The notes beneath the pieces were generated by a model. That model had not been told where the DNA came from. It saw nothing but the letters and a program-made list of their open reading frames with translations, and searched no databases. Positions 5,691-29,546 of a stretch of 29,614 nt of DNA are shown one piece after another. The stretch is from positions 1 to 29,614 of the IMG/VR virus record IMGVR_UViG_3300033142_000207; one strand, given 5' to 3'. The stretch's first letter is position 1; every line of letters starts with the position of its first letter. Origin of the DNA: a virus. The position numbers were made by a program, and so were the translations under genes.

Positions 5691-6215
5691 TTATGCAAGC
5701 TTGATTGGTTGCGTATTCTCAAACGCTATAGAAGTTGCTGTTGTAGCACGACCAAGGCGTTGAATTATCTCTCCAGAACCGGTAGGTACGGTTGGTGTTG
5801 CACCTCCAGCTGTGATAGTTGATAGGAAGTGAACGTTACCACTATCTAGTCCAGAAAGTTGGTCATTTGTGCCTTCGAAGTAAACAACCGTTGAGTCTAA
5901 TGCTGTATAAGAAGCAAGAACAAACCCGTTTGCTTCTTTGCCTGTTGTGCCGGCATCAGCCTTACGTACACGAACAGCACCAGCAGTACCATCGTAGTAT
6001 ACATTAACAAAGTCGCCAGCACTGAGATTTTCAAATGCTACAAGAGTCTGAACATCATCACCAAGACCAACAGGCATCATCGTATTAGGAAATCGTCCAG
6101 TCGCGTCTAGTGACGGAATTAGGTTTTCGTTACCTGCGCCGCCTGTTTGTGTTGATATGTTTTCTTCGATTCCGCCTGTTGCAGGATCGATTTTTAAGAA
6201 TTTTTCGCCGGCCAT
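5691..6215 (-). CDS. Virion structural protein with fibre-like N-terminus and beta-barrel body
   Basis: The 174-residue product begins MAGEKFLKIDPATGGIEENI and continues ENLIPSLDATGRFPNTMMPVG, the 'value to parameter' pattern seen in many small phage tail and structural proteins. Residues 62-174 (FENLSAGDFVNVY, then VRVRKADAGTTGKEANGFV) resemble small beta-barrel proteins such as capsid decoration or DUF2190-like proteins, but I cannot choose between capsid and tail. CGAGGAAC is a good ribosome site 7 bases before the ATG at 6215. It is the first gene after the late promoter box at 6252-6259, which suggests high late expression, as expected for an abundant virion component. Confidence 0.72.
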   Translation of the reverse strand: MAGEKFLKIDPATGGIEENISTQTGGAGNENLIPSLDATGRFPNTMMPVGLGDDVQTLVAFENLSAGDFVNVYYDGTAGAVRVRKADAGTTGKEANGFVLASYTALDSTVVYFEGTNDQLSGLDSGNVHFLSTITAGGATPTVPTGSGEIIQRLGRATTATSIAFENTQPIKLA

Positions 6216-6251: not shown

Positions 6252-6259
6252 TATTTATC
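6252..6259 (-). promoter_or_regulatory. Late promoter box for the 174-residue gene
   Basis: The minus strand reads GATAAATA, and the TAA stop of the 203-residue gene (6255-6257) lies inside it. The predicted start is near 6246. The early leader ACAATAGCACATACT nearly repeats the leader at 3217-3257. Confidence 0.7.
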
Positions 6260-6866
6260 CTAAGTTGATAGGAGTCTTGATATCCACTATCATTTTGTCT
6301 GTTGTGACTGGATATCCAACTTGTAAAAGGAATCCTGTTGTTGGTACCGTTTGTGTCATGAATCCGTTATTTCCTAGAAATATAGGTTTGTTCAGAGTCC
6401 AAGTCCATGTAACTTCTTGTATATCTCCGTTCATTATTGCTAATACATCAGCCGATTGTAGAAATGCTGTGTCGGTTAATCCAGCAACAATGTGTATGTG
6501 GTCTGGGTCATCTTTATCCGCATAAACAACAAACCCATCATCAGCAGCAACCATTCTGTGTGCATTTATATCGGTACCGGCAATACCAACAATTGCAGAT
6601 TTAACAACATTATATGTGTTATTGAGAGTAACATTTTGATGAATCTCATTGAACTCTGGTGTGATTGCATCGTCACCATCCGTAACACTCAGGGACGTAT
6701 CGGAGTCAACGACCGAGACACTATCTTCTACGCTGTCTACATTGATACTATCTGTAGGTTCGGAGACACCAATAGAGTCTTCCGAGATGGTCACCGTTAA
6801 TCCGGTACCGCCTTCTATGACTTGGACAGAATCCTCATCGTCAACAATATTGTAAGTATCGGCCAT
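6255..6866 (-). CDS. Virion structural protein with acidic N-terminal repeats
   Basis: The 203-residue product has two parts. Residues 1-65 are a very acidic, low-complexity stretch built on Asp-Ser-hydrophobic-x-Val units (EDSVQVIEG, EDSIGVSEP, EDSVSVVDSD). This may form a short beta-solenoid or an extended stalk. Residues 75-203 include HQNVTLNNTYNVVKSAIVG, HRMVAADDGFVVYADKDDP and the closing FLGNNGFMTQTVPTTGFLL, a C-terminal pattern seen in other phage structural proteins with a small beta-barrel. It starts 3 bases after the stop of the 118-residue gene, so coupled translation is likely. It probably belongs to the same virion substructure as the genes on either side. Confidence 0.7.
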   Translation of the reverse strand: MADTYNIVDDEDSVQVIEGGTGLTVTISEDSIGVSEPTDSINVDSVEDSVSVVDSDTSLSVTDGDDAITPEFNEIHQNVTLNNTYNVVKSAIVGIAGTDINAHRMVAADDGFVVYADKDDPDHIHIVAGLTDTAFLQSADVLAIMNGDIQEVTWTWTLNKPIFLGNNGFMTQTVPTTGFLLQVGYPVTTDKMIVDIKTPINLG

Positions 6867-13265: not shown

Positions 13266-16200
13266 CTACATTGTCGCTATAGCGCGGAAGTTCTTAACTT
13301 GAGGAACTTTATATCTTGTGGTTGTATCAACCTTCAATACAATCTTAACAGAGAACTCCGAGAAGTCTTCATCAGGATATTCCTTAGGGTCGTATGTATA
13401 CTCAACAAAGTTTTCGTATGTATTAACATTATCAGCAACAACGTTTGTTTGTTTCATTGGACGCCATTCTGTTCTATCATCTTCTGTTATGCCGTTTGTT
13501 GGGTCAACAACTACAGATATGATGTGTGTCCAGTTATCATCTGTTTGGTCTGATGTTGGTGTATTTGTGTTTGAACCAATCTTAGACTTATAAATCTCAG
13601 AATCGTATTGTACATAATCACCAATTGAATGACCGCCACTAGAATCAAACTCATATATAGTAGAAATAACTTCCTCTGTAACAAATATCACATTGTTTGC
13701 AGGAACTACAGTTGGGTCGAATTCTTGGAAGTCAGTAGCATTTGAAATGTACATCTTCTCAAGTCCAGTATCATCATCAATTCTGGTAACAAATACACTA
13801 CCTTTAACGATATTACCTGTTGAACCAGCAACAGTTGTTGTATCGTAGTATTGAATGTTACAAGTGTTGTTCACAAGAACATCATCAATTGCACCAATAG
13901 ATAGTGAAGCAGGTATCAAGTCAACATATTTTGGAACATACTCACTGGTCTTGTAGTACACATCAATTTCACTATTGAAAGGAACAACAGCGTCGAATAT
14001 AACCTTCAAATCATCGGATGATGTTGTTAACTTTGTGGCCTCTGTGATGTATACAGATGTTTCAGCAATATTACCTATAGGATTTTGTGATGTGTTATCC
14101 ACAGTGATTGCACTAGTTCTCTCATCATTAATAACAGGAGAGATATTAACATCGGTTGTAGACATCTTGGAGGTAATTGTCAAGTCTCCACCAGTAGTTG
14201 AAAGGGTCTCAACTGTATCAAGAGATGTGTTCTCTTTGTTCAGTAACGTGCCGTTATTTCCTGGTAATGCGTAGTCATAAACAATTCCTGTTTTAGGATG
14301 TTCTAGGTCTTCGATATTAAGATTCATCAACACTAAATCTTTATCGGTTGTCCATGCAACAGAATCTCCGTTTATCTCATCATAGTACGAAGCATCATTG
14401 ACTAAATCAAAGTTTGCCCAAGTGGAATCATCCAATTCAGAGAATCCAGCAGGGTTCTCGAACACACACTTATGAATATCGAACTTGACATCCTTTGTTT
14501 GGTCAGGAGTCCAAGTAGAACCATTCTGAGAGATTAACATAACACCAGCGTATGGTTGTTTCATAATCACTTCGTTTGTGAAGATGTCTTGTTTACCAAT
14601 CTCACCAACAAACATTGTGTACTCATTACTGTTAGACATAACAATGAATGAATACTCTACGCTTGGTTGTAGATATACAGGGTCACCAAAGACAAACTCT
14701 GTTGAAGTTTGTCCATCATCAGAAACGGTAATATCGCTCGGGTTAACTGTAACTTGTGAGAACGGTACCATATTCTGTGTTGGAATACCGTTTTCATTTT
14801 CAACTATCATTATCGAAACTGGAATATTCTTTGTTGATTTTGTTTGGAAGAACAGATCAATCTTATCAAGATAAATGCCTTGACCATCTTCAACAAGGAA
14901 CGTTTGGGCAACAGGGTCACTCCAATTAGTACGTCCTGCCCAAGTTGATATCCATCGGGATGGTGTAACAGTCGTAACAGTCGTAACGGTTCTTTGTGTT
15001 GTATTTAGAGTTCCGTTTGCTTCATATTCTGTTTCAGAAGAAGAAACACTGTCTGCGCCTGTATTATCATAGTCAACAAGTTTTACAACAACAGGTGTGC
15101 CTGCTTTGAACTTGTTAGCCGGTATATTAAATGTACCAGTACAAGCACCAGTCGCGTCTGTTTTAACGTTGTCTCCAACTGTTCCATCAGAAACAGTTGT
15201 TAAACTTGTTGAGATATCAATACCATCGAAGAACAACTTGTGTTTATAGTTAGGTACTAATCCTTCAGCAGAGAAAGTTACATTACGTGAACGCATAAAG
15301 TAAAACGCATCACGACTAACCAATCTATCCGAAACTCTACGTTCTGTAGTTGTACGACCTGTTGTTAACCAACCTCTGCGTTGACTACCGGTCACTGTGG
15401 TTGTTACACTAGTGGTTTCTCTTGGTGTAAACGGTCTAGCTGATAGTCCTAATTCTTTACGTCCCTCGGGAGAGACCAACATTTTATCAACATTATCTCT
15501 ATTCTTTCGTGTAAGTGGGTTCGACCAATCGCTATTACCAGGAATGTTCTCCATGCGGGTGCTTTTACCAACGATTGAATTTCTCCATGCGTTCCATATT
15601 GGTTCGATATTACGATTCAATGACTCGGTACGTTTTGCACCAGCCAATCGTGAACCAGAACCTGTTTGAATTGTAGGTAAGTAATATGTAGATACCCAGT
15701 TATCAGTTTTAGGAACTATATCAAGAGAACCTTCAAAGTGGAATACATTGAATGGGTTAACGTTGGTTACACCAGAAGCAGCACTAGCACTAATCGCAAT
15801 ATCTGTTGTGTGTGATAGATGCCAAGTAGTTACGCCTTTAGCGATACCTGTAGGTGTATTCGAACCACCATCATAATCGATAAGGTTTCTACTTGCATCA
15901 AGGAAGTATTTCTCTGTTGTACGAGCACCTTCTGTTTCAGCATAGTCAACATTGATATCAACATTGTTCATTGTAAATGAACCACGAAGAGTACCATCCT
16001 CAAAATCAAGAGAGGCAACATAGTCTGGGTGTATTACATTAGATACGTCATGTGATGTGAAGTTGTCAACAAGGATACCATTTTTGAATCTTGAATTTCC
16101 AAGTTCATCAAGAATGTTCATCTCGGATGCAGCTTTTTCAAGCATATTCAATGATGTGTAGTATTCAAGGTTCTCAACACGTTTTACGATATCACGAATA

Positions 16201-18554
16201 TCATCCATTGTGAATGTCTTCTTGTCGATATCGGTAACTTCTACAGCATTTGGTTCAAGTGTATATGAAGGAATATCAATGATATACATTGACATTGTGC
16301 CAGGAATATCCTTAGGCGTCTCAGGATTATTACTTGGTATACCAGTAGATACGCCATAGTTTCCTTGAGAGTCGAGATACACTTTGTCTAGTCTTGACAG
16401 ATATTGGGTATATGAACATGTAATGTTTGTTCTTGGTTCTACAACTGATACACTACCAGCAAGTTCGCCTTCTGTTCTTCTGAAATCGACAACGTTTCTG
16501 TTAGAAACATGTACTCTTGAATCGTTACTAATATATGTAGGCATATAACGATACAGGTCAGAACCTTCGGTCGCGCCTACATATGAATCAACTGTATACG
16601 CATCACCTTTGATAGAACCTTCACTATGAGCAAAGTATTCGTAGTCAATTGTATAATTTTTCGCAGCATTAAGACCACTAACTGTAGTCTTGCCGTACAT
16701 AACATCTGTTGCGCCGTCGGTAATAATTATATCGGTAAGTGGTACATCAAGAGAATCGGTTGTGTTTGTAACAGTGGTAACTCTATAGAAGTCATCATTT
16801 GGAAGAATAACACTATCAACAGCAATTGTATTTGTTGATGTTGATGTAAGTGTTTTAACTCTTGGTATACCACCAGTGATGTCTTCTTTAACAACAACGT
16901 TGATAGTTTGTGGTGTGCCAGGAACAAGTGTACCACCTGTACCAGTAATTGTGATTGTGGTTTGTGCAGAATTATCTACTGTGTAGTTAGATGGGTCAAC
17001 ATAACCACCAGCACCATCAAACAATACTACCTCTGTACTTGTACTCGAAGCGAACACACGATTAGATTGTGAGATGTTTTGCGTCCAGACATCGGTACCA
17101 GTTAGACTATATTGTGTAAGAACAGTATAGTCAAATGATGTATTGTCGATTTCCTTTACTTGTTCACGTTCAAATGAAAAAGCAAGACCATGATTCTCTG
17201 GTTGATTATCAGTATCAAACACATCAACATTCGCTACCGCTGAACTTGTAACACCGGTAATAGAACTTGTAGATTTAAGGAATGATGCAATAGATGGTGA
17301 CCACTCTAACCAAATACGTAGAGTATCAACATAAGGAGTAATAGCCACAATACGGGTGGTTGTAATCTCGGTACCGCCGCCAGAAACATCTGACCAAAGT
17401 TTTACTTCTTCGCGTTGTCCGATATTGAACGCACCGATACAATCAGGCACAATGCCATTAAGTACAAGGTCAATATAAACGCCATATTCAGCATAAATCT
17501 GTTCATTGATTATATCTTCTGTTGTTCTTGCTTTGTCAATATAAAGTGTTTCAGAAATTCTTTTGTCAATTTCGTAACCTCGTACATAGGCTTTACCTGT
17601 ACCGAGTTTAATTTCTAGTTGTTTTTCTTCATCGACGGTAGGAGTCTCAATGAACTTGAGTTCCATATCAATAGGGTTAACAGAGTAGTCTCCAGACTGG
17701 TCGTATGTTCTACGTGCAAGAAGGTCGAGAATGTCACTATATTGTACGTTGTTAACCGCTGTGATTGTCTCTCCATTCTCATAAATGGAAATCATGTAGA
17801 AGTCTTCGGGTACTGAACCTCCGTCTAGGTATGACGTTAGGACACACTCTCCTTTATATCTATCAGCACCAGGCGCATTGTAGTTATATGAACCAGAAGC
17901 GGGGTCGAGAAGGGTTGAATCATCATCAGATTCTACAAGAGAATCGGTGAATCTGTAACCAATGTAGTATTTTCCTGTTGTATCGTCAAGGTTAACGTCA
18001 GCTTCATTCTCACTAACTATAACAAACGAACCACCAAGATACACAAGACCATCGGTGATATTTGCTGTAATATAGTTGTGTTTTGTATCAACAACCATAC
18101 TTGTGTCAGGAATTAGTACATCGGTAGAAGTATATGCGCTAAACACCGCAGCAACATCGACAGAACCACTATGGGTGGTATAGTAGATACGACCATTTAC
18201 AGTATCAATAGAATCGATATATGCCTTATTTGTAACGTCTGACTCATCCGCGATATAAACACCTGTTAGAGCAGGGTCAGAGTCAACAAGATTATCAATA
18301 AGGTCGTTAACGGTATCACCAGTAACACTAATATATGTTCTTTTATCATTAACACTGATCTTGGAACCCAGAATCGGAGTACCATCAGCAAATATGTGCT
18401 TGCTGAAATGGCGAATCTGTCCTTGAAGGATTGTTTGAACCTGTGTAAGTTCTCTAGCCTGTACAGCACGACTAGGATTGAAAAGAATTCTTAGGTAATT
18501 CTTTGTTTCATCAAAATCGTCAAAGTAAGGCGAAGTATTTAGGTCTATGGCCAT
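13266..18554 (-). CDS. Giant DUF4815 virion protein, likely baseplate or tail-fibre attachment
   Basis: The 1,762-residue product begins MAIDLNTSPYFDDFDETKNY and continues with PSRAVQARELTQVQTILQGQ. This is the recognisable start of DUF4815 proteins: large structural proteins of marine T4-like phages found near the baseplate genes. Around residues 788-810 a helical stretch (VKRVENLEYYTSLNMLE) may be a coiled coil. Near residue 1210 the motif SDPVAQTFLVEDGQGIYLDK starts a beta domain that includes QPYAGVMLISQNGSTW. A CBM5/12-like module (HSIGDYVQYDSEIYKSKIG) lies near 1640-1690. It occupies the place of T4 genes 9 to 11 after gp8, so it may link baseplate and fibres; that is inference. AAGAGAT lies upstream of the ATG at 18554. 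Confidence 0.88.
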   Translation of the reverse strand: MAIDLNTSPYFDDFDETKNYLRILFNPSRAVQARELTQVQTILQGQIRHFSKHIFADGTPILGSKISVNDKRTYISVTGDTVNDLIDNLVDSDPALTGVYIADESDVTNKAYIDSIDTVNGRIYYTTHSGSVDVAAVFSAYTSTDVLIPDTSMVVDTKHNYITANITDGLVYLGGSFVIVSENEADVNLDDTTGKYYIGYRFTDSLVESDDDSTLLDPASGSYNYNAPGADRYKGECVLTSYLDGGSVPEDFYMISIYENGETITAVNNVQYSDILDLLARRTYDQSGDYSVNPIDMELKFIETPTVDEEKQLEIKLGTGKAYVRGYEIDKRISETLYIDKARTTEDIINEQIYAEYGVYIDLVLNGIVPDCIGAFNIGQREEVKLWSDVSGGGTEITTTRIVAITPYVDTLRIWLEWSPSIASFLKSTSSITGVTSSAVANVDVFDTDNQPENHGLAFSFEREQVKEIDNTSFDYTVLTQYSLTGTDVWTQNISQSNRVFASSTSTEVVLFDGAGGYVDPSNYTVDNSAQTTITITGTGGTLVPGTPQTINVVVKEDITGGIPRVKTLTSTSTNTIAVDSVILPNDDFYRVTTVTNTTDSLDVPLTDIIITDGATDVMYGKTTVSGLNAAKNYTIDYEYFAHSEGSIKGDAYTVDSYVGATEGSDLYRYMPTYISNDSRVHVSNRNVVDFRRTEGELAGSVSVVEPRTNITCSYTQYLSRLDKVYLDSQGNYGVSTGIPSNNPETPKDIPGTMSMYIIDIPSYTLEPNAVEVTDIDKKTFTMDDIRDIVKRVENLEYYTSLNMLEKAASEMNILDELGNSRFKNGILVDNFTSHDVSNVIHPDYVASLDFEDGTLRGSFTMNNVDINVDYAETEGARTTEKYFLDASRNLIDYDGGSNTPTGIAKGVTTWHLSHTTDIAISASAASGVTNVNPFNVFHFEGSLDIVPKTDNWVSTYYLPTIQTGSGSRLAGAKRTESLNRNIEPIWNAWRNSIVGKSTRMENIPGNSDWSNPLTRKNRDNVDKMLVSPEGRKELGLSARPFTPRETTSVTTTVTGSQRRGWLTTGRTTTERRVSDRLVSRDAFYFMRSRNVTFSAEGLVPNYKHKLFFDGIDISTSLTTVSDGTVGDNVKTDATGACTGTFNIPANKFKAGTPVVVKLVDYDNTGADSVSSSETEYEANGTLNTTQRTVTTVTTVTPSRWISTWAGRTNWSDPVAQTFLVEDGQGIYLDKIDLFFQTKSTKNIPVSIMIVENENGIPTQNMVPFSQVTVNPSDITVSDDGQTSTEFVFGDPVYLQPSVEYSFIVMSNSNEYTMFVGEIGKQDIFTNEVIMKQPYAGVMLISQNGSTWTPDQTKDVKFDIHKCVFENPAGFSELDDSTWANFDLVNDASYYDEINGDSVAWTTDKDLVLMNLNIEDLEHPKTGIVYDYALPGNNGTLLNKENTSLDTVETLSTTGGDLTITSKMSTTDVNISPVINDERTSAITVDNTSQNPIGNIAETSVYITEATKLTTSSDDLKVIFDAVVPFNSEIDVYYKTSEYVPKYVDLIPASLSIGAIDDVLVNNTCNIQYYDTTTVAGSTGNIVKGSVFVTRIDDDTGLEKMYISNATDFQEFDPTVVPANNVIFVTEEVISTIYEFDSSGGHSIGDYVQYDSEIYKSKIGSNTNTPTSDQTDDNWTHIISVVVDPTNGITEDDRTEWRPMKQTNVVADNVNTYENFVEYTYDPKEYPDEDFSEFSVKIVLKVDTTTRYKVPQVKNFRAIATM

Positions 18555-18567
18555 ATTTTATCTCTTT

Positions 18568-19500
18568 TTAGTATTCTAGTACAAGTCTAACAAGCTCATT
18601 CTGTCCTGATACTCTATATATAGGAACTCTGTGTTCAATATATAATAAGTCGCCAGAAGGAACAGTTACATTGGCTGCAATATCAGCTTGCACAATATCC
18701 GATGTGGTTAATCTTGTAGAACCATCATCTGCTAATGGATTACTTATGATAGCCACCTTTCTGTATGAATAGTCGAAATCAAGGTCTGTGTCTTCAAGCA
18801 ATGCACGAACCATAACGAAACGTGAACGAAGTTTTCTAATGTTGTATTCATGGTCGACATATAGAGGGTCACTAGGGTCAATCGCATCGATTCCGTAGTT
18901 GTTGTCTTCTTCAAAATCAGATGATTCGTTCCAATTTACAGGAATCCAAGCAGTCGCAAGGAACTTATCTTGGTCAACAGGTGCAATAGTGTATAGATAT
19001 TTCCATACGTTGCCGTCGTTAGCAGTGAATACACCACCAGTTAATTCTGCGAATACATATGTTCCGCCGGTACTTGTTTTGTTTGGTGAATCTGTGCTAG
19101 CGCCAGTAGAAGTCGTACATTCCCAAACTTCTCCTGTTGTCTCTACATACGCATAGTAATCAAGTGAGTCAAGATTAGCAGGTATCATAGAGGTATCATA
19201 GATAGGATATGTTACACCGGTTTCCCAGTTAATTCTGCGTACAACGTGTGAGAAATCAGCTTTGTCTACAAGGTGTAGGCCGAGAATTTCATCCCACATA
19301 CCGTCTACTGTATCATATTCTTCATCGTATGAACCAACCGTTGGGTCAGCGATTGTATCATCAGTCCATTCGGTTGATTTACCAATCGCGATATACACCT
19401 GATTTTTCACAGTCGGCAGGGTTGTTGTATTGAAACCAAACTGTCTAATGAAGTTTGTTGCGCCTTGTACTCTTAAATCTGAATGTACTATTGATGACAT
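18568..19500 (-). CDS. 8: Baseplate wedge protein gp8
   Basis: The 310-residue product matches T4 gp8 (334 residues) in layout. Near residues 35-45 VYIAIGKSTEW aligns with the T4 'I-F-I-T-F-G-R-S-E-P-W' block. MWDEILGLHLVD, then ADFSHVVRRINWETGVTYPI, matches the 'V-I-P-R-R-D-W' segment. DGNVWKYLYTIAP (162-174) matches 'D-G-Y-V-W-E-Y-L-F-E-I-P-P', and the C-terminal GDLLYIEHRVPIYRVSG matches 'G-E-M-I-Y-M-E-N-R-P-P-I'. gp8 is a dimeric wedge protein at the baseplate periphery. AGGAAAC precedes the ATG at 19500. Up to three late promoter boxes precede it at 19526-19577. Confidence 0.92.
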   Translation of the reverse strand: MSSIVHSDLRVQGATNFIRQFGFNTTTLPTVKNQVYIAIGKSTEWTDDTIADPTVGSYDEEYDTVDGMWDEILGLHLVDKADFSHVVRRINWETGVTYPIYDTSMIPANLDSLDYYAYVETTGEVWECTTSTGASTDSPNKTSTGGTYVFAELTGGVFTANDGNVWKYLYTIAPVDQDKFLATAWIPVNWNESSDFEEDNNYGIDAIDPSDPLYVDHEYNIRKLRSRFVMVRALLEDTDLDFDYSYRKVAIISNPLADDGSTRLTTSDIVQADIAANVTVPSGDLLYIEHRVPIYRVSGQNELVRLVLEY

Positions 19501-19580: not shown

Positions 19581-21881
19581 TTAAGATGCGTTAGGATCCT
19601 TGAATACTTCAACCGCACCGGAATTTGTGTATACATTGCCGATATAGTCATCCAAATCAGCAGCTGCCAGCAAAGTATCACCTTGTATATCAACTGATGT
19701 TCCGAAATTATCATTGAGTTCATAACCAACATCACTATAAAGAATATTTCTTGTCTCTGTTTCTGTAATAATGTCAAACACATATACAGCCTTTTGTGGA
19801 CGATCACCAACAGCCAGTGTAGTACCATGTAATGCTATACTAGTACCAAATGAGTAACTAGTATTAGCATTAGAAGCTGTTAATCTGTGCATGAAGTTTC
19901 CAGTAGTCAGATCAAATACATATACAGCACCAGTACCAGTAGCAGTATTGTCAGCTACTTCAGCCACACAACAATAGTCACCATAGATAGCAACATTTGA
20001 TCCAAACCCAACATCTCCAAAAATTGGCGCAGGTAAATTAAGTACGTGTAGTTCATTTCCTGTTGCAGCATCATATACATATGATTTACCAACAGCATCA
20101 TATAAGCCCTGTGAACCGACTATAATTGTACCATCATGTGAATCCATAGTATAAGCATAACTGTCACCATTACCACTACCAGCAGATGGTCTTATGGTAC
20201 TAAGATAATTACCAGTAATTAAATCAAATACATAAATGCATCCCTCATAAGGAGTAGGATCGCCAGCACCACCAGATTCCCAAGCCGCGCCTACATATAT
20301 TTTACCTGATTCTATTCTTCCTGATATTCCAAAGTAATCCCATTCTTGTGCATCTGGCGCTTCTAATGTGTGTACTAAATCTCCTGTAACAGCATCAAAT
20401 ACATATGCTCTACCAGCAGAATCTATGGTACCATCTACCCATTCGCCGGGCGACCCAACAAAAATATAGTCATCTGTAATATGGACACTTGCACCGAAAC
20501 CTGCATAGTCAACCGGATTAGGGGTATTCAATGCAAAAATCGGGGCTAGAGTTTCTTTATCAAATACATCTACTCTACCTATAAACGTAGCTTCCGTAGA
20601 AGCTGATGAAACCGAAAATATAGTATTAGATATTTCAACACCATCTCCCCATCCTAAACCAAAACCATCCTGAGTTGCTGGTGTAGGTGCATAAAGGGTG
20701 GAATTATTTGTTGTAACAAAATCACCAAAGATTTCGGTAATTAACAATATAAGTTCAATTATTGGTCTTCTAACCAGCATAAACGTTTCTGTTGTGTCCT
20801 CGGTATCGAAATCATCGATGGTCATATGTTCAATATCGCTAATACTAACAGTCTGTGTATAGAAATCTTCATCTACGTTATCTTCAAACACTACATAACT
20901 TGTATGACGCATCGAACGATAATCGGTTGTGTGGTCTTGGAGATATAATTCCGCTGCGACCTCGATATCCATATCAACACTATAATAATTCCACTCTATT
21001 TCCCAAGTTCTTTCAAACTGGTAACAGTCCAAGAAATATCTCTCAATCGAGTCGCGTTTCCATGTGCCAAACAGTTTCATGCCAGCTGGGTGTATTAATC
21101 TTTTTAGAACACCTTTATATGTTCTTGCTGACATTTCAGCCCCAAGTACATACGAGAAATCTTGGTAGTAGTTGTTGTCTTGTAGTTTCTTGTCAGAAGA
21201 AAGGAAACCATCACGGTTGGTCCAACTACCTGGCAAGTCATCAATGATATCAAACACTTGAACAGTTGTGTAGACACCATCTGGGTTCTCTATGGTTAAG
21301 TCTTCACCAACAATAAAGTTTCCCACTTTATTAAGAACAGCAAATACAGGATTACCTCCGACGGTAGTATATGTCTCAACATAACCACGAGCCTCGGATA
21401 TGTCTCCAGTAATAAACTTGTCTTTGTACGCCGCGAGTAACAGGGTGTCGGATATGTCTGTGTGTATATAATATGGTTGAACCCATTTACCATCAGAGCA
21501 CCTAAGTATATCAACTTTTGGATAGTAGAAATCTACTTTTCTGTCGAATAGTGACTTGAATAGGAACTTATATGAGTTCTCATTACCCTTATTTGTAAAG
21601 AAGTCGCGGATGTTCTTTAAGAATAGTTTCTCATCAGCAATGATATTGATTGGAACATTCTCAGCAACCTCGGCCTTTATCTCATCAAGGAATTCCTGTG
21701 TTGTCTTGTCGATATCAAGATAGTCAGGAAGATTGCTTGGAATGTCAGCCTCGCCCATAGCTCTACTAAGATATTCAAAGTAGTTCTCTATGAGCGCGAC
21801 ATATTGAGGGCTCTCTCCGCGGAGATTAGATGGTATACACCTATCAACGATAACCGATAAATCTTTTCTCTTCATAGACAT
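19581..21881 (-). CDS. 7: gp7-like baseplate wedge protein with C-terminal FG-GAP-type propeller
   Basis: Residues 1-380 of this 766-residue protein resemble the C-terminal part of T4 gp7. IENYFEYLSRAMG (31-43) corresponds to 'C-E-A-Y-I-Q-Y-L-S-D-G-Y-G', and FFTNKGNENSYKFLFKSLFD (94-113) to 'F-Y-S-T-K-G-I-E-A-S-Y-K-F-L-F-K'. A Phe-Tyr-Tyr-Pro-Lys strand and RLIHPAGM (261-268) also match. The position between gp6 and gp8 supports gp7. Residues about 403-762 form a propeller with seven repeats, each ending in a V-Y-V-F-D-x-x-T-G-like motif (436, 492, 548, 600, 653, 699, 756) and including F-G-x-S-V/I and V-G strands. The whole is shorter than T4 gp7 (1,032). It starts 3 bases after the gp6 stop, with an alternative ATG at codon 3. 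Confidence 0.88.
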   Translation of the reverse strand: MSMKRKDLSVIVDRCIPSNLRGESPQYVALIENYFEYLSRAMGEADIPSNLPDYLDIDKTTQEFLDEIKAEVAENVPINIIADEKLFLKNIRDFFTNKGNENSYKFLFKSLFDRKVDFYYPKVDILRCSDGKWVQPYYIHTDISDTLLLAAYKDKFITGDISEARGYVETYTTVGGNPVFAVLNKVGNFIVGEDLTIENPDGVYTTVQVFDIIDDLPGSWTNRDGFLSSDKKLQDNNYYQDFSYVLGAEMSARTYKGVLKRLIHPAGMKLFGTWKRDSIERYFLDCYQFERTWEIEWNYYSVDMDIEVAAELYLQDHTTDYRSMRHTSYVVFEDNVDEDFYTQTVSISDIEHMTIDDFDTEDTTETFMLVRRPIIELILLITEIFGDFVTTNNSTLYAPTPATQDGFGLGWGDGVEISNTIFSVSSASTEATFIGRVDVFDKETLAPIFALNTPNPVDYAGFGASVHITDDYIFVGSPGEWVDGTIDSAGRAYVFDAVTGDLVHTLEAPDAQEWDYFGISGRIESGKIYVGAAWESGGAGDPTPYEGCIYVFDLITGNYLSTIRPSAGSGNGDSYAYTMDSHDGTIIVGSQGLYDAVGKSYVYDAATGNELHVLNLPAPIFGDVGFGSNVAIYGDYCCVAEVADNTATGTGAVYVFDLTTGNFMHRLTASNANTSYSFGTSIALHGTTLAVGDRPQKAVYVFDIITETETRNILYSDVGYELNDNFGTSVDIQGDTLLAAADLDDYIGNVYTNSGAVEVFKDPNAS

Positions 21882-21884
21882 CTA

Positions 21885-23651
21885 TTAACTTTGTGACTCT
21901 AGGTAAAGTTTAACATTAAGTTCTACAGCAGTAATGGTCTTTGTACCTTCAAGAACCATATTGTTTCCTGTTAGATACACATTGTTTGATACTGGTGAAA
22001 CGAACAACTCAATCTCTTGGTTGCCAGATGTACTGGCCACAAAACTATTTAGGTAGATTATTCCGTTGTCTGGGTCAATATTGCCGACACCTTTCTCTCC
22101 ACTAATGTTCACATCATTCTTATATAGATGAATCCAAATTCCCTCATCACAAGATTTTAACTGCCATACATCTCCTGAACCGTCTTCCCAAGTACTACTA
22201 CGGAAACAGGTACTATTGATAGGAACAGAGAAATCGAATACACGAGCAATACTGTCACCGTCATATGTGGTGAACTTCTTTGATAGGGTGATAGATGTTA
22301 CATTGTTCTTAATCGCAACATCAACATCATCGATATAGGCAACATATTTTGAGAAATAGAATGCCAACTCAAACACACTATCAATATCTTGGAAGAATGA
22401 TGAAATTCCAGCATCAATAGCCGTAATTAATTCTCCTTCTGTACGTGTTGTGTCGTATTTGTCGTATTCAACTTCTGTGGTTGTGTTGATGTATACATAT
22501 TCTGGAGTAACAATCTCAGGTATGATTCCGATTATACTATTTGTGCTAAGAATCTCCTCGATGATTTGACTCTTTGTTGTCAATGTTAATTCGGTACCAT
22601 AATTAGGTTTGATTGAGATGAACACCTTTCCGTATTGAGGAGGAGTATTATCTTCGCCTCCCCATACATTAATAGCATCGATGAATGAGTATTTGTTTAA
22701 AAGTAGTGCTGTGTAGTCTTCAACCGTAACCGCTCTTTGTTGTGACTTATAAACTTTGGGTGCTAACATCTTGATACGGTCATCATCTTCCCGATGTCCG
22801 CCGCCGCCGGCACTGTTGGTATTTGTTATTGTGAAGGAAGATCTAAGATATGTCTCACTAAGATGTGTAATTCCGTTTGTTAAATCGAAACCACTACAAC
22901 CATTGGCCGCTGGTCCTCTTGTAACAAGATAGTCGATACGAACAACATCATCATTCGCGATTGCAGCACTAATAACATCATCACCAAAATAGACTTCAAC
23001 ATTTCCATCATCACCCTCTTGTCGATAGAATACTTGCGAATCTTTGTCTGTTAGAATGATATTAGTTTGGCTTGTCCATTCGGTGATACCGAATTCGTCT
23101 GTAACATTAATAGTGAGATGTTTACTATCAACATCACCTTGATTAATTTTGAAGATGTCGCTAGATGATGCTGTATGTGTCCATGTTTGATATCCAGTAA
23201 CACCTTGGAACAGAGTTGCCGTACCAGTTAGTGTTCCTCCAGCATCACCAGTTAGGAAGAATTCGTCCATTGTTATAAATGTAAACGTTTCATTGTCGAG
23301 AAGACTTGTGAACTTTGTTCCTTTTGGAACAGTTACAGAAGTTTGACTACCTTGTGATGTAACCGACATATCAACTTCAACAGTCGCTGCGGTTATTGTA
23401 GATGGAACATATCCAAGACCCTGTGAACGGGAAATAATGTTCTTTCTTTGTTGTGCTGTTGATAAGAAACTCTCTGACATTGCCATGTTAGCGGTCAGTG
23501 CGTTATAGTGAGTTACATACGCCATTGCATCAAGAAGAATGTTCATTGCTGAACCTTCAAACTCATAGTCGGTCAGTTCGTCTTGACCTTGTAGGTATGT
23601 CTTGATTGACGATTTAATGTCGTCAAAGTCTAATGAAATCTTTTCAGGCAT
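21885..23651 (-). CDS. 6: Baseplate wedge protein gp6 (baseplate J-like)
   Basis: The 588-residue product opens ISLDFDDIKSSIKTYLQGQ and continues with GSAMNILLDAMAYVTHYNAL (33-52), then SESFLSTAQQRKNIISRSQG and GYVPSTITAA (81-90). This is the hallmark N-terminus of gp6/J proteins. Beta domains follow, with a His-Arg-Glu-Asp-Asp region near 286. QRAVTVEDYTALLLNKYSFI (305-324) plus YGKVFISIKPN (340-350) is the typical J-like block that lets two copies dimerise and clamp around the wedge. T4 gp6 has 660 residues. It lies 8 bases after gp25, and TAGGTT precedes the ATG at 23651. In contractile machines gp25 and gp6 contact each other, so co-expression makes sense. Confidence 0.94.
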   Translation of the reverse strand: MPEKISLDFDDIKSSIKTYLQGQDELTDYEFEGSAMNILLDAMAYVTHYNALTANMAMSESFLSTAQQRKNIISRSQGLGYVPSTITAATVEVDMSVTSQGSQTSVTVPKGTKFTSLLDNETFTFITMDEFFLTGDAGGTLTGTATLFQGVTGYQTWTHTASSSDIFKINQGDVDSKHLTINVTDEFGITEWTSQTNIILTDKDSQVFYRQEGDDGNVEVYFGDDVISAAIANDDVVRIDYLVTRGPAANGCSGFDLTNGITHLSETYLRSSFTITNTNSAGGGGHREDDDRIKMLAPKVYKSQQRAVTVEDYTALLLNKYSFIDAINVWGGEDNTPPQYGKVFISIKPNYGTELTLTTKSQIIEEILSTNSIIGIIPEIVTPEYVYINTTTEVEYDKYDTTRTEGELITAIDAGISSFFQDIDSVFELAFYFSKYVAYIDDVDVAIKNNVTSITLSKKFTTYDGDSIARVFDFSVPINSTCFRSSTWEDGSGDVWQLKSCDEGIWIHLYKNDVNISGEKGVGNIDPDNGIIYLNSFVASTSGNQEIELFVSPVSNNVYLTGNNMVLEGTKTITAVELNVKLYLESQS

Positions 23652-23659
23652 ATATTAAC

Positions 23660-24085
23660 CTATATTATTCTGCTTAAAACAAAACTGATTGTCGAATCAT
23701 ACTCTCGACCCTTAATAACAAAAACAATATCAATACCATATCTCTGATTATCTTCATCAGGAACCACTACGACCTCTAATAGGTCTATCCTTGGTTCGTA
23801 TGCCTTCAATGAATTGGTGATGGCATCTTTGATGTACATTGTTGTAGCAATATCAATCGGCTCAAACAACACACGCTTGAGGTCTGTGCCTCTTTCCGGA
23901 TGAAATGGAGCCTCGTTATACTCAAACATTACAATATTTTCTACTGCCTGTTTGATAGCATAATCATCTTTGACTATTACCACATCATCGGTAACAGGGT
24001 GTTTCTTTAGGTCAACATCGATGTCCACATAGGTAGACTTCTCGTTGTATTTCCCGGATGATTGTGTGCTGATTATATTACTCAT
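23660..24085 (-). CDS. 25: Baseplate wedge protein gp25
   Basis: The 141-residue product matches the gp25/TssE fold family (T4 gp25 has 132 residues). It has VDIDVDLKKHPVTDDVVIV, then DYAIKQAVENIVMFEYNEAP (41-60), F-H-P-E-R-G-T-D-L-K and the conserved Glu-Pro-Arg triad (residues 97-99) followed by IDLLEVVVVPDED. The EPR motif is the hallmark of gp25 and related proteins in T6SS and P2 (W). gp25 binds gp6 and the sheath-contact region. No classical ribosome site is visible: the ATG at 24085 is preceded by CATAAATAACGGT, a late promoter box exactly 5 bases upstream. Confidence 0.93.
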   Translation of the reverse strand: MSNIISTQSSGKYNEKSTYVDIDVDLKKHPVTDDVVIVKDDYAIKQAVENIVMFEYNEAPFHPERGTDLKRVLFEPIDIATTMYIKDAITNSLKAYEPRIDLLEVVVVPDEDNQRYGIDIVFVIKGREYDSTISFVLSRII

Positions 24086-24090
24086 ACCGT

Positions 24091-24098
24091 TATTTATG
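24091..24098 (-). promoter_or_regulatory. Late promoter-like box abutting gp25
   Basis: The minus strand reads CATAAATA with the fibre stop codon (24094-24096) inside. The spacer to the gp25 ATG is 5 bases, so T4 spacing would place the transcript start on the A of ATG. A promoter here would make a leaderless gp25 message. It could instead be a chance match in AT-rich sequence. Confidence 0.4.
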
Positions 24099-27000
24099 TA
24101 GTACTATTATGTGCATCTAAAAGTGTCTGCATCTCGGCCTTCAATTCTCCAACTTGTGTAGATAATTCTTGTATAGCTGTAACCATAACTGGTATTAAGT
24201 CACCTTGTTTGAATTCTAATCTATCTGGATTATTGTTTAATATAAGATCTTCTAATTCCCCACCAGCATGAGCAATAATTGAAGACTTAACTTCTTGGGC
24301 AATAAATCCATTCTGAATAATATCATCAATCTTACTACCATCATTGATACCATCATCATACCAATCTCGTTTATCCCATTGATATGTTACTGGTCTTAGT
24401 GAGTTAATGAATTCAATACCAGCACCAAGATCATTTATATTTGTCTTATCTCTCTCATCAGATAGTGCTGTAATTGATGTTTGTTGGCATCTTAGTGTGG
24501 CTATTAGGCTGTCACCTAACGTGATTTCATTGGCAATTGTTGTTGTGGATGCTTGAGCACCAGTACCAATAATTAGACAGTTATTTCCACTTACTTTTGA
24601 TGTACCAGCGGCATCACCTATAAATATATTTCCATTTCCAGAAGCATAAGCTAATCCAGTATTTCTACCAATACCTATAGCATTCGTAAAGGTTGAAGCC
24701 GCTGCTCCCATTAAGGAATCTGCACCTAATGCTATATTGGTATTTCCTACTGTGTTTATACCAGCACTACTACCTATAAAAGTATTTTTATATCCAGTTG
24801 TTAATTTGTATCCTGTACGATACCCAATACCAATATTATCATTACCAGTAAGTTTCAGAGTGGCATCTCCAAATAACGATTGATAACCCATAGCAATATT
24901 TCTAGTTGATGTAGTTATATGATTACCCGCAAAATAACCCAATAATACATTTGAACTACCTGTAGTAATATCAAACGCAGTATTTCTACCTAAAAGTATA
25001 TTTTCAGATCCACTAGTTAATCCAGAACCAACAGAATAACCAAAACCTATATTGTAATGTCCAGTTAATTTAGAAGTGGCATCTCCCGCTAATGCGTTAA
25101 CAGACATTGCAATATTATATGTACCAGTGGTGATATTTTTTCCTGAATTAAAACCTATTAAATTATTATTATGTCCAGTACTTAGGCTATATCCGGAAGC
25201 AGTACCAATACCTATATTGTTAGCGCCTGTTATTCCAGTAGCATCTCCAAATAAAGCTTGATCACCAATGCCTATATTACTATCTGATGTAGTGACATTT
25301 TGTCCTGCTTGATAGCCGATTAATACAGTAGTATCACCGGAAGAAATATAATAACCAGATTGTGCCCCCATAATTATATTACGGGCACCAGTAGTTAAAT
25401 TGAGACCAGTACTACCACCTATACCGATATTATCACCACCAGTAAATCCAATAGCATTTCCTCTTAATGCATTAAACCCTACACCAACATTATATCCACC
25501 AGCAGTTATATTTTGTCCAGCCGAATACCCCTGAAATACATTATTTGAACCAGTAGTTATTAGAGATCCTACATTAAATCCTATTCCAATATTATAGTTA
25601 CCAGTAAATTTAGAAGTGGCATCTCCTTGTAAGGCTTGTTCGCCTATAGCAACATTACGATATCCAACAGTTAGATATCGACCAGCGTATAATCCTTGTA
25701 AATTATTAGAGTAACCAGTAGTTAATTCGTTTCCAGAATAGCTACCAATCCCGATATTATTATCACCGCTTAGATATGTTGTAGTTAATCCTCGTAATGA
25801 ATTAGAACCTAATGCTGTATTATAATCACCTGTTCCAATATTTTGACCGGCTGTACTACCTAACATAATATTATATGTTCCAGTAGATAAATTATATCCA
25901 GTAGCCTTACCTATACCAATGTTACTAGTACCTGTAAGTTTAGATGTTATATGTCCATTTAGCGCACTTTCACCTATAGCAATACTATTAATAGCCGTTG
26001 TTAAGAATTCTGCTGCATATGCACCCATTGCGATAGTGTCATGAGTAGTAGTGCTTTCTACACCAGTTTTTCTTCCAAGAAATACATTGTTGTATCCTGT
26101 ACTTATAACTTTCCCTGCTTCATAACCTAAAGCGATATTATAAATACCTGTTGATGCACTAGCAGCATACAGAACCGATTTTCCGATAGCTATATTTCGT
26201 ATGCCAGTTAGATTTCGTCCAGCACTTTCTCCCATAAGAACACAATCTGTTGCTGTGACTAAGTATCTACCCGCAAAATCCCCAAGACAAATATTATCTA
26301 TACCAGTAGTAATAGCGTAACCAGCATAGTCTCCTATACCTATATTCTGATTATCAGAACCATCATCACTAAATAACGCTGTACCAGCATTACTAATTGC
26401 AATAGATGAACCAATAAATTCACCTATACCACTCAAACCAGTTAATCCAGAACCATCACCTGTGAATGATGTAGCAGTTAGGTCTCCATTTACTGTGACG
26501 GTATTGCCTGAGAAGTCTCCCTCGATTAGAGCTGTATCAGATGTAGCACTTGGACTAGCAATACGTAATGTATCATTGAATACTCCGCCAGTAATTGGTC
26601 CAGCACCTAACCATAAATTATTATTAGATGTAGTTTGTATTGCGCCACCGAAACTACCAAGATGAATATTATGATCACCAGTGAAGTAAACACCATTCGT
26701 TCCAAATAATGCTTGATAACCTACACCAATATTATAACTACTAGTATGTAGATAAAATCCAGTTCTCCAACCTATAAGTGTATTATAATCACCACTAGTT
26801 AAATACTGACCTGTTTCAATACCAATACCTATATTATTAGAACCTGTTAGCCCTGCTGAATTTCCTTTTAATCCATCTAAGCCTATACCTGTGTTTGAGC
26901 TACCAGAAGTTACATTACTGCCTGCACGGTTACCTAAGAAGGAGTTGCTAACACCACTAGTAACATCCTTTCCTGCACCATTTCCGACAGCTACATTATA

Positions 27001-29163
27001 ACCGCCTGTTAGTTTATTAGTTAGATCACTATATAATGCTTGATAACCTACTGCTGTATTATTACTACCACTAGACATATGATATCCAGCACTATTTCCA
27101 AGTAATAAATTATATTGGCCAGTTGAAAGATAATTTCCTGTATCTGGTCCTATACCTATATTGTAATCACCAGTTAGTTTTGCAGTAATATCCCCTCTCA
27201 GAGCAAATCGCCCTATGGCAATGGTATGAGATCCATCTAATAGATTCAAACAAGCCTGGGAGCCAAGTACTATGCCATAGCCTGCTTGTGTTGCGTTCAT
27301 CGCCGCAGAATATCCCATATAGATATTTTCACCGCCTTGTTCGCAATAACGACCAGCACTCTCTCCTATTGCAATGTTACGAGAGCTTTGAGCAGCACCA
27401 GAACCATATAGAGCATAGAATCCAATAGCAACATTATCGCTACCATCATTAAGATATCCTGAATATTGTCCAGCGAAGAAGTTATCAGAACCACTATCAG
27501 CAGTGTAACCAGCATTTACCCCCATGAATATATTATCATGACCAGTAGTTAAACCATATCCAGTATCCTCACCAATACCAATATTGTAAGAACCAGTTAA
27601 TTTAGTAGTTACATCTCCCATTAAGGCACTATGACCAAGTGCAATATTGTTACCACCTGAAGTTATATTAACACCTGCGTTATAACCAATAATGGTGCAA
27701 TATGTTCCTGTTAAAGCAACAGGTTGTGATTCACCTAATTGGGTAAGCCAAGGCGATGCACCATCGGTAACGCCAGTAAGAGATACTATACCAATAAATC
27801 CACCAGTAGCTTCAAGTGTTCCATTAATCTTAACTGTCTCAGCAGAGAAATCTCCCTCAATAAGAGCTACATCAGCCTTAGTAGTAGGATTGGAAATACG
27901 AAGAGTATCAGCAAACACTCCTGCTGTTAATGGGCCAGCTCCTAACCATAAGTTATTAGTAGAGGTTGTTTCAATCGCAGCACCGTCATAACCGATATGA
28001 ATGTTATAATCGCCAGTTAACGGGTTTGTAACATTACTTTGTAAAGAACCGGCCCCTACAGCAATATTTATATTTCCTTCTGTTACATAATATCCAGCAT
28101 TAACCGCAAGGTATATACTATTTCCAGAACCAGTATCCAGATTACTTCCAGCGTTTGTACCAATGGCCACAATTTCGCTAAGGGTTGAACCGACTGATCC
28201 TGTTAAAGCACCTGTACCAATTCCAATATTACTATTGCCAGAAGTTAGATTGGAACCTGCATTAGATCCTAATAATATAGATCCTGACGAACTAGTTAAA
28301 TTATATCCTGCATGAAATCCAATACCGATATTATCATTACCAGTAAGTAATGTGTCGGCCAGCGCATATTCACCGATTCCTATATTTGAATTTCCTGTAA
28401 CTGACCCAAGTCCAGCATTATAACCAACAAAGATATTATAATCTCCTACGGTTATACTACTACCTGTAGAAACTCCTAGGAATGTATTATATGTACCATC
28501 AGTGAGGTCATAACCAGCGTTATAACCAATACCAATGTTATGCCATCTAGTCAGTTTAGAAGTTGGATCGCCTCGTAATGCATTCTGCCCCATTGCAATA
28601 TTACTATGACCAGTTGTAATATTAGTTCCAGCATCATGGCCAAATAAGAAGTTATTATGTCCTGAGGTAATGCTGATGCCGGTTCCGTAACCTGAGAGTG
28701 TATTGTATTCGCCGGTGATTGAAACAGGGCCATTCTCGCCTAATTGTGTTGTGAATGGTGTTTCTGAGTCGGTTATACCAGTAAGTCCAGATGGAGCATC
28801 AATCCAAGAACGCGCACCAGCGATAGTAGACGATAGAATTTGCCCATCACTTGATGGATTTCCAAGGTCTGGTTCCCGAACCGACCAATCTGTCCATGTG
28901 TCTATGCCGGATGTAGTCTCATATCCTTGACGTATGTATTTTATTATAACAGCGTCTTCGGCTTTATAGGATTCTTGATATACCGATGAATCTTCTGTGA
29001 TTTCGGTAACTTCGACAATCCAATAAAATGCTCCAGCGACAGGAGGATTGGTAGCAGTACTACCATCAATTCTAAAAACACCATTATCGATGAGTGTATT
29101 AAAATCTGTAGCGCCTGTTATATTTTCGAATATACTTCTTTTTGCGTGCTTGATTACGTTCAT
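24094..29163 (-). CDS. Giant repeat fibre with beta-roll repeats and self-cleaving S74 chaperone
   Basis: I choose the ATG at 29163 (1,689 residues). An in-frame TTG at 29181 would add 6 residues and overlap the upstream gene; residue numbers here count from the TTG. Residues 20-105 resemble a pyocin-knob-type segment (IDNGVFRIDGSTATNPP, then DTWTDWSVREPD). Residues about 130-1,560 consist of short units of the form N-I-G-I-G-x-x-A-G-x-x-L-T-x-G, like YadA/trimeric autotransporter head repeats, in three blocks joined by near-identical linkers (DTLRI, LIEGDFS). The C-terminal 122 residues are a Peptidase S74 intramolecular chaperone. SDERDKTNI gives the Ser1574/Lys1579 dyad, with cleavage expected just before Ser1574, and a final coiled coil starts LIPVMVTAIQELSTQVGEL. 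It is most likely a trimeric receptor-binding or long tail fibre. Confidence 0.9.
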   Translation of the reverse strand: MNVIKHAKRSIFENITGATDFNTLIDNGVFRIDGSTATNPPVAGAFYWIVEVTEITEDSSVYQESYKAEDAVIIKYIRQGYETTSGIDTWTDWSVREPDLGNPSSDGQILSSTIAGARSWIDAPSGLTGITDSETPFTTQLGENGPVSITGEYNTLSGYGTGISITSGHNNFLFGHDAGTNITTGHSNIAMGQNALRGDPTSKLTRWHNIGIGYNAGYDLTDGTYNTFLGVSTGSSITVGDYNIFVGYNAGLGSVTGNSNIGIGEYALADTLLTGNDNIGIGFHAGYNLTSSSGSILLGSNAGSNLTSGNSNIGIGTGALTGSVGSTLSEIVAIGTNAGSNLDTGSGNSIYLAVNAGYYVTEGNINIAVGAGSLQSNVTNPLTGDYNIHIGYDGAAIETTSTNNLWLGAGPLTAGVFADTLRISNPTTKADVALIEGDFSAETVKINGTLEATGGFIGIVSLTGVTDGASPWLTQLGESQPVALTGTYCTIIGYNAGVNITSGGNNIALGHSALMGDVTTKLTGSYNIGIGEDTGYGLTTGHDNIFMGVNAGYTADSGSDNFFAGQYSGYLNDGSDNVAIGFYALYGSGAAQSSRNIAIGESAGRYCEQGGENIYMGYSAAMNATQAGYGIVLGSQACLNLLDGSHTIAIGRFALRGDITAKLTGDYNIGIGPDTGNYLSTGQYNLLLGNSAGYHMSSGSNNTAVGYQALYSDLTNKLTGGYNVAVGNGAGKDVTSGVSNSFLGNRAGSNVTSGSSNTGIGLDGLKGNSAGLTGSNNIGIGIETGQYLTSGDYNTLIGWRTGFYLHTSSYNIGVGYQALFGTNGVYFTGDHNIHLGSFGGAIQTTSNNNLWLGAGPITGGVFNDTLRIASPSATSDTALIEGDFSGNTVTVNGDLTATSFTGDGSGLTGLSGIGEFIGSSIAISNAGTALFSDDGSDNQNIGIGDYAGYAITTGIDNICLGDFAGRYLVTATDCVLMGESAGRNLTGIRNIAIGKSVLYAASASTGIYNIALGYEAGKVISTGYNNVFLGRKTGVESTTTHDTIAMGAYAAEFLTTAINSIAIGESALNGHITSKLTGTSNIGIGKATGYNLSTGTYNIMLGSTAGQNIGTGDYNTALGSNSLRGLTTTYLSGDNNIGIGSYSGNELTTGYSNNLQGLYAGRYLTVGYRNVAIGEQALQGDATSKFTGNYNIGIGFNVGSLITTGSNNVFQGYSAGQNITAGGYNVGVGFNALRGNAIGFTGGDNIGIGGSTGLNLTTGARNIIMGAQSGYYISSGDTTVLIGYQAGQNVTTSDSNIGIGDQALFGDATGITGANNIGIGTASGYSLSTGHNNNLIGFNSGKNITTGTYNIAMSVNALAGDATSKLTGHYNIGFGYSVGSGLTSGSENILLGRNTAFDITTGSSNVLLGYFAGNHITTSTRNIAMGYQSLFGDATLKLTGNDNIGIGYRTGYKLTTGYKNTFIGSSAGINTVGNTNIALGADSLMGAAASTFTNAIGIGRNTGLAYASGNGNIFIGDAAGTSKVSGNNCLIIGTGAQASTTTIANEITLGDSLIATLRCQQTSITALSDERDKTNINDLGAGIEFINSLRPVTYQWDKRDWYDDGINDGSKIDDIIQNGFIAQEVKSSIIAHAGGELEDLILNNNPDRLEFKQGDLIPVMVTAIQELSTQVGELKAEMQTLLDAHNSTT
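24457..27990 (-). repeat. Coding repeat array of the fibre, blocks 2 and 3
   Basis: This stretch encodes dozens of 13- to 20-residue units in the form N-(I/V)-(G/A)-(I/V/L)-G-x-x-A-L/G-x. Two linker copies with DTLRI...LIEGDFS lie near 26470-26580 and 27800-27930. The linkers separate block 3 (about 24500-26460), block 2 (about 26590-27780) and block 1 (about 27920-28740, outside this interval). The repeats are degenerate in DNA, so they are protein repeats rather than satellite DNA. There is no constant repeat-spacer structure. Confidence 0.85.
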
Positions 29164-29168
29164 GGTGA

Positions 29169-29176
29169 TATTTATG
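29169..29176 (-). promoter_or_regulatory. Late promoter-like box abutting the repeat fibre gene
   Basis: The minus strand reads CATAAATA with the TAA stop of the 124-residue gene (29172-29174) inside. The spacer to the ATG at 29163 is 5 bases, so with T4 spacing the transcript would begin at the start codon. No ribosome site is visible at this start. Confidence 0.4.
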
Positions 29177-29546
29177 TCCAACCAATGCTTAGATTATATT
29201 CATCAACTTCTTTGATAGAAGTAAAACCGGATATTCTTGATTCGTGTTCTTGTCTGTTCTTGATGATGTTAGACCTAAAATTTTTCAACGCCTCGGCCTT
29301 ACCAAGAATTACTGTTGCTAATTGTTCTGCACTATATTTAATGCCTATCTCAACAGTCATATATTCGCCTATTGTTCCATCAAGTTTATATTGAATGGCC
29401 TCTTCTCTAAGTATAGGCCATGCTGCGGCCTCCCATGTAGAGTATTCGGTCATGACGGAATCCATTACACGAATGGCTTCCTTATTGAGCTCATCAGTCT
29501 TCAAACTCTTGGCCAATTCTAAAAGTTGTTCGGGTGTTCTTTTCAT
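29172..29546 (-). CDS. Small protein resembling tail-fibre assembly or DUF4376 proteins
   Basis: The 124-residue product is helical: residues 1-35 have MKRTPEQLLELAKSL and DELNKEAIRVMDSVM. A Trp-x-x-Ala-Ala-Trp section and a middle part follow (YKLDGTIGEYMTVEIG, a Tyr-x-x-x-Gly-Thr-x-Gly-Glu-Tyr-x-x-Val motif). A Lys/Arg/Asn-rich helix carries ALKNFRSNIIKNRQEHESRI. The pattern (N-x-R, then R-x-x-H-x-x-x-I) resembles DUF4376-type tail-fibre assembly proteins. It overlaps the upstream stop by one base (ATG at 29546). It lies just before the 1,689-residue fibre gene, so a chaperone or adaptor for that fibre is a natural guess, with low certainty. Confidence 0.6.
   Translation of the reverse strand: MKRTPEQLLELAKSLKTDELNKEAIRVMDSVMTEYSTWEAAAWPILREEAIQYKLDGTIGEYMTVEIGIKYSAEQLATVILGKAEALKNFRSNIIKNRQEHESRISGFTSIKEVDEYNLSIGWT

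Follow-up and report, generated by a model that had tools for sequence, protein, structure and literature searches.

A gp7-family baseplate wedge protein with a predicted C-terminal FG-GAP propeller in a virus with a T4-type baseplate operon

The usual view of the baseplate protein gp7 is that of an internal scaffold. The T4 proteins gp6 and gp7 assemble into a (gp6)2-gp7 heterotrimer, which has a helical bundle and a trifurcation unit (PMC6300606; PMC10457771). In phage XM1, the gp7 orthologue gp17 has 12 tail spikes docked through its internal loop (residues 80-106) and its C-terminal region (residues 201-242) (PMC10457771). In phi11, PRD1 and phiKZ, the role of receptor-binding or peripheral tail domain is taken by propellers (PMC6115969). 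Here we describe a gp7-family protein that ends in a predicted propeller. It is encoded in IMG/VR record IMGVR_UViG_3300033142_000207, whose whole stretch of 29,614 nucleotides is called the window below. This 29.6-kb record is probably a fragment of the virus genome.

Gene order and the gp7 core

The window contains a T4-type baseplate operon in the order gp25, gp6, gp7 ORF, gp8 and VrlC/DUF4815, as assigned by Pfam and PHROG (Table 1). The coordinates, strand and length of the 766-aa ORF were exact, and it lies between gp6 and gp8, the gene position of gp7. The nearest isolate for the window gp6 is Nitratidesulfovibrio phage SRB7757 (34%). Further genes in the window are those for fibre, collar and S74-chaperone fibre proteins. 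Directly upstream of gp25 is a 1695-aa fibre-like protein (24094-29181, minus strand), which contains numerous GNxNIGIGxxAG-type repeats and ends in an S74 intramolecular chaperone. Two adjoining ORFs in the fibre region (5691-6215 and 6255-6866, minus strand) both match PHROG 4368, an apparent gene duplication.

Table 1. Features of the gp7-family protein and its neighbouring genes in the window.
Feature	Coordinates	Strand	Evidence
gp7-family baseplate wedge protein with C-terminal propeller, 766 aa	19581..21881	-	ORF; Pfam PF23786 and PF14312
Core module A, residues 5-119, helical, with FFTNKGNENSYKFLFKSLF; corresponds to T4 gp7 643-758	21525..21869	-	hhalign and hmmsearch against T4 gp7; predicted all-helical
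Small beta domain in internal slot, residues 130-214	21240..21494	-	Positional equivalent of T4 gp7 domain V (766-861)
Core module B, residues 217-275, GFLSSDKKLQDNNYYQDFSYV...HPAGMKLFG; corresponds to T4 gp7 864-913	21057..21233	-	hhalign, alignment
Core end, residues 276-371	20769..21056	-	Alignment with L008, L046, L044, L045 and L036
Hydrophobic helical linker, fusion point, residues 372-395	20697..20768	-	Predicted structure, third-position GC, alignment
Seven-unit FG-GAP_2 beta-propeller, residues 396-766	19584..20696	-	Pfam, motif count, viral alignment, AlphaFold2, Foldseek
gp6 baseplate wedge protein, directly upstream of gp7 ORF	21885..23651	-	Pfam Gp6-like; PHROG 219 E 5e-138
gp25 baseplate wedge / sheath initiator, upstream of gp6	23660..24085	-	Pfam PF04965
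gp8 baseplate wedge protein, directly downstream of gp7 ORF	18568..19500	-	Pfam PF09215
DUF4815 / VrlC-type virion protein, 1762 aa, after gp8	13266..18554	-	Pfam PF16075; PHROG 358

The preliminary description had matched the first 380 residues to the C-terminal region of T4 gp7. Pfam, a profile search of the PDB and hhalign all bore this match out, with the core ending near residue 371. The Pfam family Baseplate_wedge (PF23786) matched the ORF above its cut-off (E 1.5e-8); recognition of the core is not new, because this family already exists. HHalign aligned window residues 6-274 with T4 gp7 643-894 (probability 97.9, E 4e-13), so that T4 domain V (766-861) falls on the beta domain at about residues 130-214. 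Through the beta domain and the HPxG module (T4 gp7 766-913), the alignment was continuous to T4 residue 894, and the second block was weak alone. A core profile was then made from an alignment of 10 relatives, with T4 left out. When all PDB chains were searched with it, the best match was T4 gp7 (E 1.8e-10), followed by a second gp7 chain sequence (E 4.8e-6). No other match was below E 0.1. Blastp with the single sequence aligned residues 7-117 with T4 gp7 644-757 (28%). Phmmer with the whole 766-aa protein gave no significant match in the PDB, and gp7 was reached by the profile only. The minimal orthologue (L008) has 375 aa, and its end is level with window residue ~371. Judged from these sequence comparisons, the 766-aa protein is the gp7 orthologue of this virus, and residues 1 to ~371 are homologous to T4 gp7 643-894.

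T4 gp7 (PDB 5IV5, 5HX2) shares with the window protein the helical core, the internal beta domain, the HPxG module and the position between gp6 and gp8. In contrast, its N-terminus is longer by ~640 residues and no propeller is detectable in its sequence, whereas the window protein begins at the core, lacks this N-terminal part with its fn3-like domain, and has a C-terminal propeller instead. The T4 N-terminal part does not define the wider gp7 family, because the name gp7 orthologue is also given to XM1 gp17, which has 242 aa (PMC10457771). The proteins of PF23786 / PHROG 17744, for example those of Caulobacter phage Cr30 and Desulfovibrio phage SRB7757, are alike in core homology and operon position, but the isolates examined have other extensions or internal inserts and no FG-GAP propeller. 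None of the phage records covers 80% of the window protein.

The C-terminal propeller and its junction with the core

A seven-repeat FG-GAP propeller had been proposed for the C-terminus, and three kinds of evidence agreed with this proposal. First, Pfam FG-GAP_2 (PF14312) matched at E 4.7e-21, with 75.2 bits against a cut-off of 23. Second, the motif [YDSE]V[FY][DK] occurs seven times (residues 438, 493, 550, 601, 654, 700 and 758; spacing 46-58 aa), and the maximum in 20,000 shuffles was three. Third, AlphaFold2 predicted seven units with ~27 strands for residues 396-766 (pLDDT 82, pTM 0.87) from an alignment of 16 viral propellers, which are 370-430 aa long, alignable over all seven units and 22-29% identical. 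The seven blades expected from the repeats were thus also found in the predicted structure. The span had first been given as 403-762, and the FG-GAP match held while the limits shifted slightly, to 396-766. AlphaFold2 with the full-length 766 aa gave a weak model (pLDDT 52), and the Foldseek matches listed for it were all propellers. When core and propeller relatives were aligned jointly, the propellers were set onto the core, and this alignment was discarded. A search of viral contigs with the propeller alone returned no virus but this one, and the single propeller sequence found no relative among bacterial genomes. Other viral FG-GAP_2 propellers (the S-TIM5 virion structural protein, S-SCSM2R 'TolB' and stand-alone genes) have FG-GAP units and the same predicted fold, but in isolates they stand alone or lie in other large proteins, with no gp7-core fusion.

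Foldseek placed the propeller model nearest to generic propellers, namely tetrathionate hydrolase, integrin alpha-V (TMq ~0.67-0.72), WDR5 and YncE. The preliminary description had pointed to integrin-type binding propellers within the FG-GAP family. The predicted fold is like that of the integrin alpha-subunit propeller, which belongs to the FG-GAP repeat family, but identity is ~16%, and the motif search of residues 391-766 found none of the integrin-type DxDxDG calcium loops. An enzyme, either of the quinoprotein type or degrading polysaccharides at the cell surface, is very unlikely. It would fit the tetrathionate hydrolase hit, which had the best Foldseek E-value, a weak PQQ_2/BamB match (E 4e-4, below cut-off) and the glucose/sorbosone dehydrogenase (GSDH)-type propellers of relatives described below. 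However, the FG-GAP_2 match was far stronger, the Foldseek ranking among propellers was almost flat, and no active-site signature was identified in the propeller.

Third-position GC drops at codons 361-420, from about 0.39-0.4 in the core to about 0.17-0.19 in the propeller, and this contrast persisted after amino-acid stratification (z 5.2). In the 1695-aa fibre gene, elsewhere in the window, the value is just as low (0.18). The GC step is thus a mark of a different history or constraint, and recent import is neither required nor proven by the low GC of the propeller. The shift across the junction would also fit an assembly chimera in which the gp7 gene was joined to an unrelated propeller gene. 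We consider such a chimera extremely unlikely, as frame and operon are intact, and a second IMG/VR contig of 43 kb has the identical ORF with 0 mismatches in 12.4 kb across the gene and both neighbours, although it may stem from the same reads.

Five close relatives (L008, L036, L044, L045 and L046) have the order gp6-gp7-gp8, and their gp7 proteins (375-608 aa) have no propeller. One of them, L036, is the isolate phage SRB7757, and the core of L044 is 44% identical to the window core in the best segment. The DUF4815 gene is also present in four of the five. Because close relatives with the same gene order are without the propeller, we read it from the sequences as a domain that is added to gp7 in this lineage and not a domain swap. 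The preliminary description had placed a propeller-like region near the N-terminus of T4 gp7 and suggested that, if so, the domain order is swapped here. This suggestion was not supported by sequence: T4 gp7 1-640 matched no propeller family in Pfam at E<=10 (only an fn3-like match was found), and hhalign against the propeller alignment gave no match (probability 0.1). A T4 tail review that predates the atomic structure names three gp7 domains and does not mention a propeller (PMC3004832). That the same propeller sits near the T4 N-terminus in rearranged order is, from these comparisons, hardly credible.

Cargo of the gp7 core in other viruses

A scan of viral contigs with the core profile gave at least 558 relatives, and 80 were kept. 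Among 116 loci that have a core ORF, 107 have gp6 directly upstream and 64 have gp8 directly downstream. Extensions were counted in 92 core proteins, all non-redundant and with both modules, using an approximate core end and a best-first sample of limited size. In this sample, 25 of the 92 had no extension above 100 aa, 52 had an internal insert above 100 aa, 43 had a C-terminal extension above 100 aa, and only three had an N-terminal one. The internal slot, residues 130-214 in the window protein, holds large inserts in many relatives. Thus, in the best-first sample, cargo is mostly found in the internal slot or at the C-terminus of the gp7 core. One protein with cargo at the other end is L076 (5873-11932), which has a 1368-aa N-terminal extension with laminin-G, at the same end as the N-terminal part of T4 gp7.

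The cargo itself is varied. Laminin-G is found on the gp7 core of L120, L121 and L076; the gp7 of S-RIM8 carries laminin-G, YHYH and a reelin repeat, and the gp7-core protein of S-RSM4 carries YHYH. A GSDH-type propeller, unrelated to FG-GAP, was detected in 4 of the 46 core members scanned, among them L012 and L013. These two and their relatives L009 and L047, from other viruses, are gp7-core proteins of 1.9-2.7 kaa in which a long stretch lies between the core and the downstream GSDH propeller; this propeller was gained independently. FG-GAP propellers are also present in four giant gp7-like ORFs, in the internal slot in L162 and after module B in L135, L136 and L189, the last three being open at the 5' contig end. 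Among the relatives listed, the compact form, with a single propeller directly on the core end, was found only in the window virus.

By position, the cargo places look topologically the same as the two spike-docking places of XM1 gp17. In Vibrio phage XM1, the internal loop and the C-terminal region likewise carry host-contact devices, but separate spike proteins are docked there, whereas the module of the window protein is covalently fused. We give about even odds to the idea that T4-like phages outside the enteric group use gp7 as a general plug-in platform. Such a platform would have a conserved core and two main cargo positions, with repeated exchange of unrelated propellers and lectin-like domains as host-contact modules, as a covalent counterpart of XM1 docking.

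The presence of gp7 in marine T4-like phages has been described differently. A pelagimyophage comparison found T4 gp7 absent from pelagi- and cyanomyophages, with VrlC in its place (PMC7029224), and an earlier comparison listed gp7 in the non-cyanophage core (PMC3037559). Other authors have named gp7 in such phages (DLP6; PMC5349666), and the S-RIM8 annotation names a gp7. Our core profile matched gp055 of Pelagibacter phage HTVC008M (E 6e-58) and protein 151 of Synechococcus phage S-RSM4 (E 2e-49), both between gp6 and gp8, and it did not match HTVC008M VrlC (E 1.3). These profile matches support the presence of the gp7 core in HTVC008M and S-RSM4, in favour of the authors who name a gp7 in phages of this kind. 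HTVC008M gp055 (L198, 2936-5986) is annotated as 'head closure Hc2', and PHROG 3465, of the same name, also matches the window protein.

Possible role of the propeller

We propose that the core (residues 1 to ~371) and gp6, from the neighbouring gene, together build a (gp6)2-gp7 wedge scaffold, as homology suggests. With an FG-GAP_2 seven-bladed propeller fused to the gp7 C-terminus in this lineage, each wedge would present one propeller, giving six copies at the baseplate. Their most likely task would be to bind a ligand on the cell surface, probably a glycan or a protein, and the propeller may then be an accessory receptor-binding module beside the fibres of the virus. We give a probability of about 0.58 to this reading of the protein as a gp7 orthologue with a wedge-scaffold core and a fused propeller that would serve as a baseplate-displayed binding module. 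From the modelled fold, the propeller as a ligand binder is plausible. The propellers of phiKZ gp131C, phi11 gp45 and PRD1 P2 are likewise in peripheral tail or receptor-binding proteins, but these are different proteins with other propeller families. The missing integrin-type calcium motifs speak against a binding module, and with fibre, collar and S74-chaperone fibre genes in the virus, another adhesin is not strictly needed.

The main rival is a structural adaptor, in which the propeller would be a docking point for a fibre or spike, or would hold neighbouring wedges together, with no host binding of its own. Propellers are protein-protein scaffolds as often as ligand binders, and the several fibre and collar proteins encoded downstream in the window need an attachment point. 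The C-terminal region of the XM1 gp7 orthologue is a spike docking site (PMC10457771), which also fits an adaptor. However, close relatives with the same operon do without the propeller. Furthermore, this place is occupied by varied, adhesin-like cargo (laminin-G, GSDH, YHYH), which is expected for host-range modules and not for one conserved docking function. We therefore consider the adaptor possible but rather unlikely. The host-contact module is the leading reading, since the cargo positions resemble the XM1 docking sites.

If gp7 does act as a platform for display, abundant marine T4-like phages have some host-range determinants that are filed as 'virion structural protein' or misannotated, and the two-position pattern is a testable rule for locating cargo domains. 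For the cargo pattern and the window fusion, no description was found in the literature. A search of the open literature found no paper linking FG-GAP, phage and baseplate, and a 2024 paper suggested that a prasinovirus may be the first virus in which FG-GAP domains are confirmed (PMC11467894). In cyanophage S-TIM61, the annotation 'virion structural protein' is given to an FG-GAP propeller (L033, 8581-9804) that has a homologue in S-TIM5. Many viral contigs (L125-L160) contain stand-alone FG-GAP propeller genes of ~400 aa each, with three or four of them in a row.
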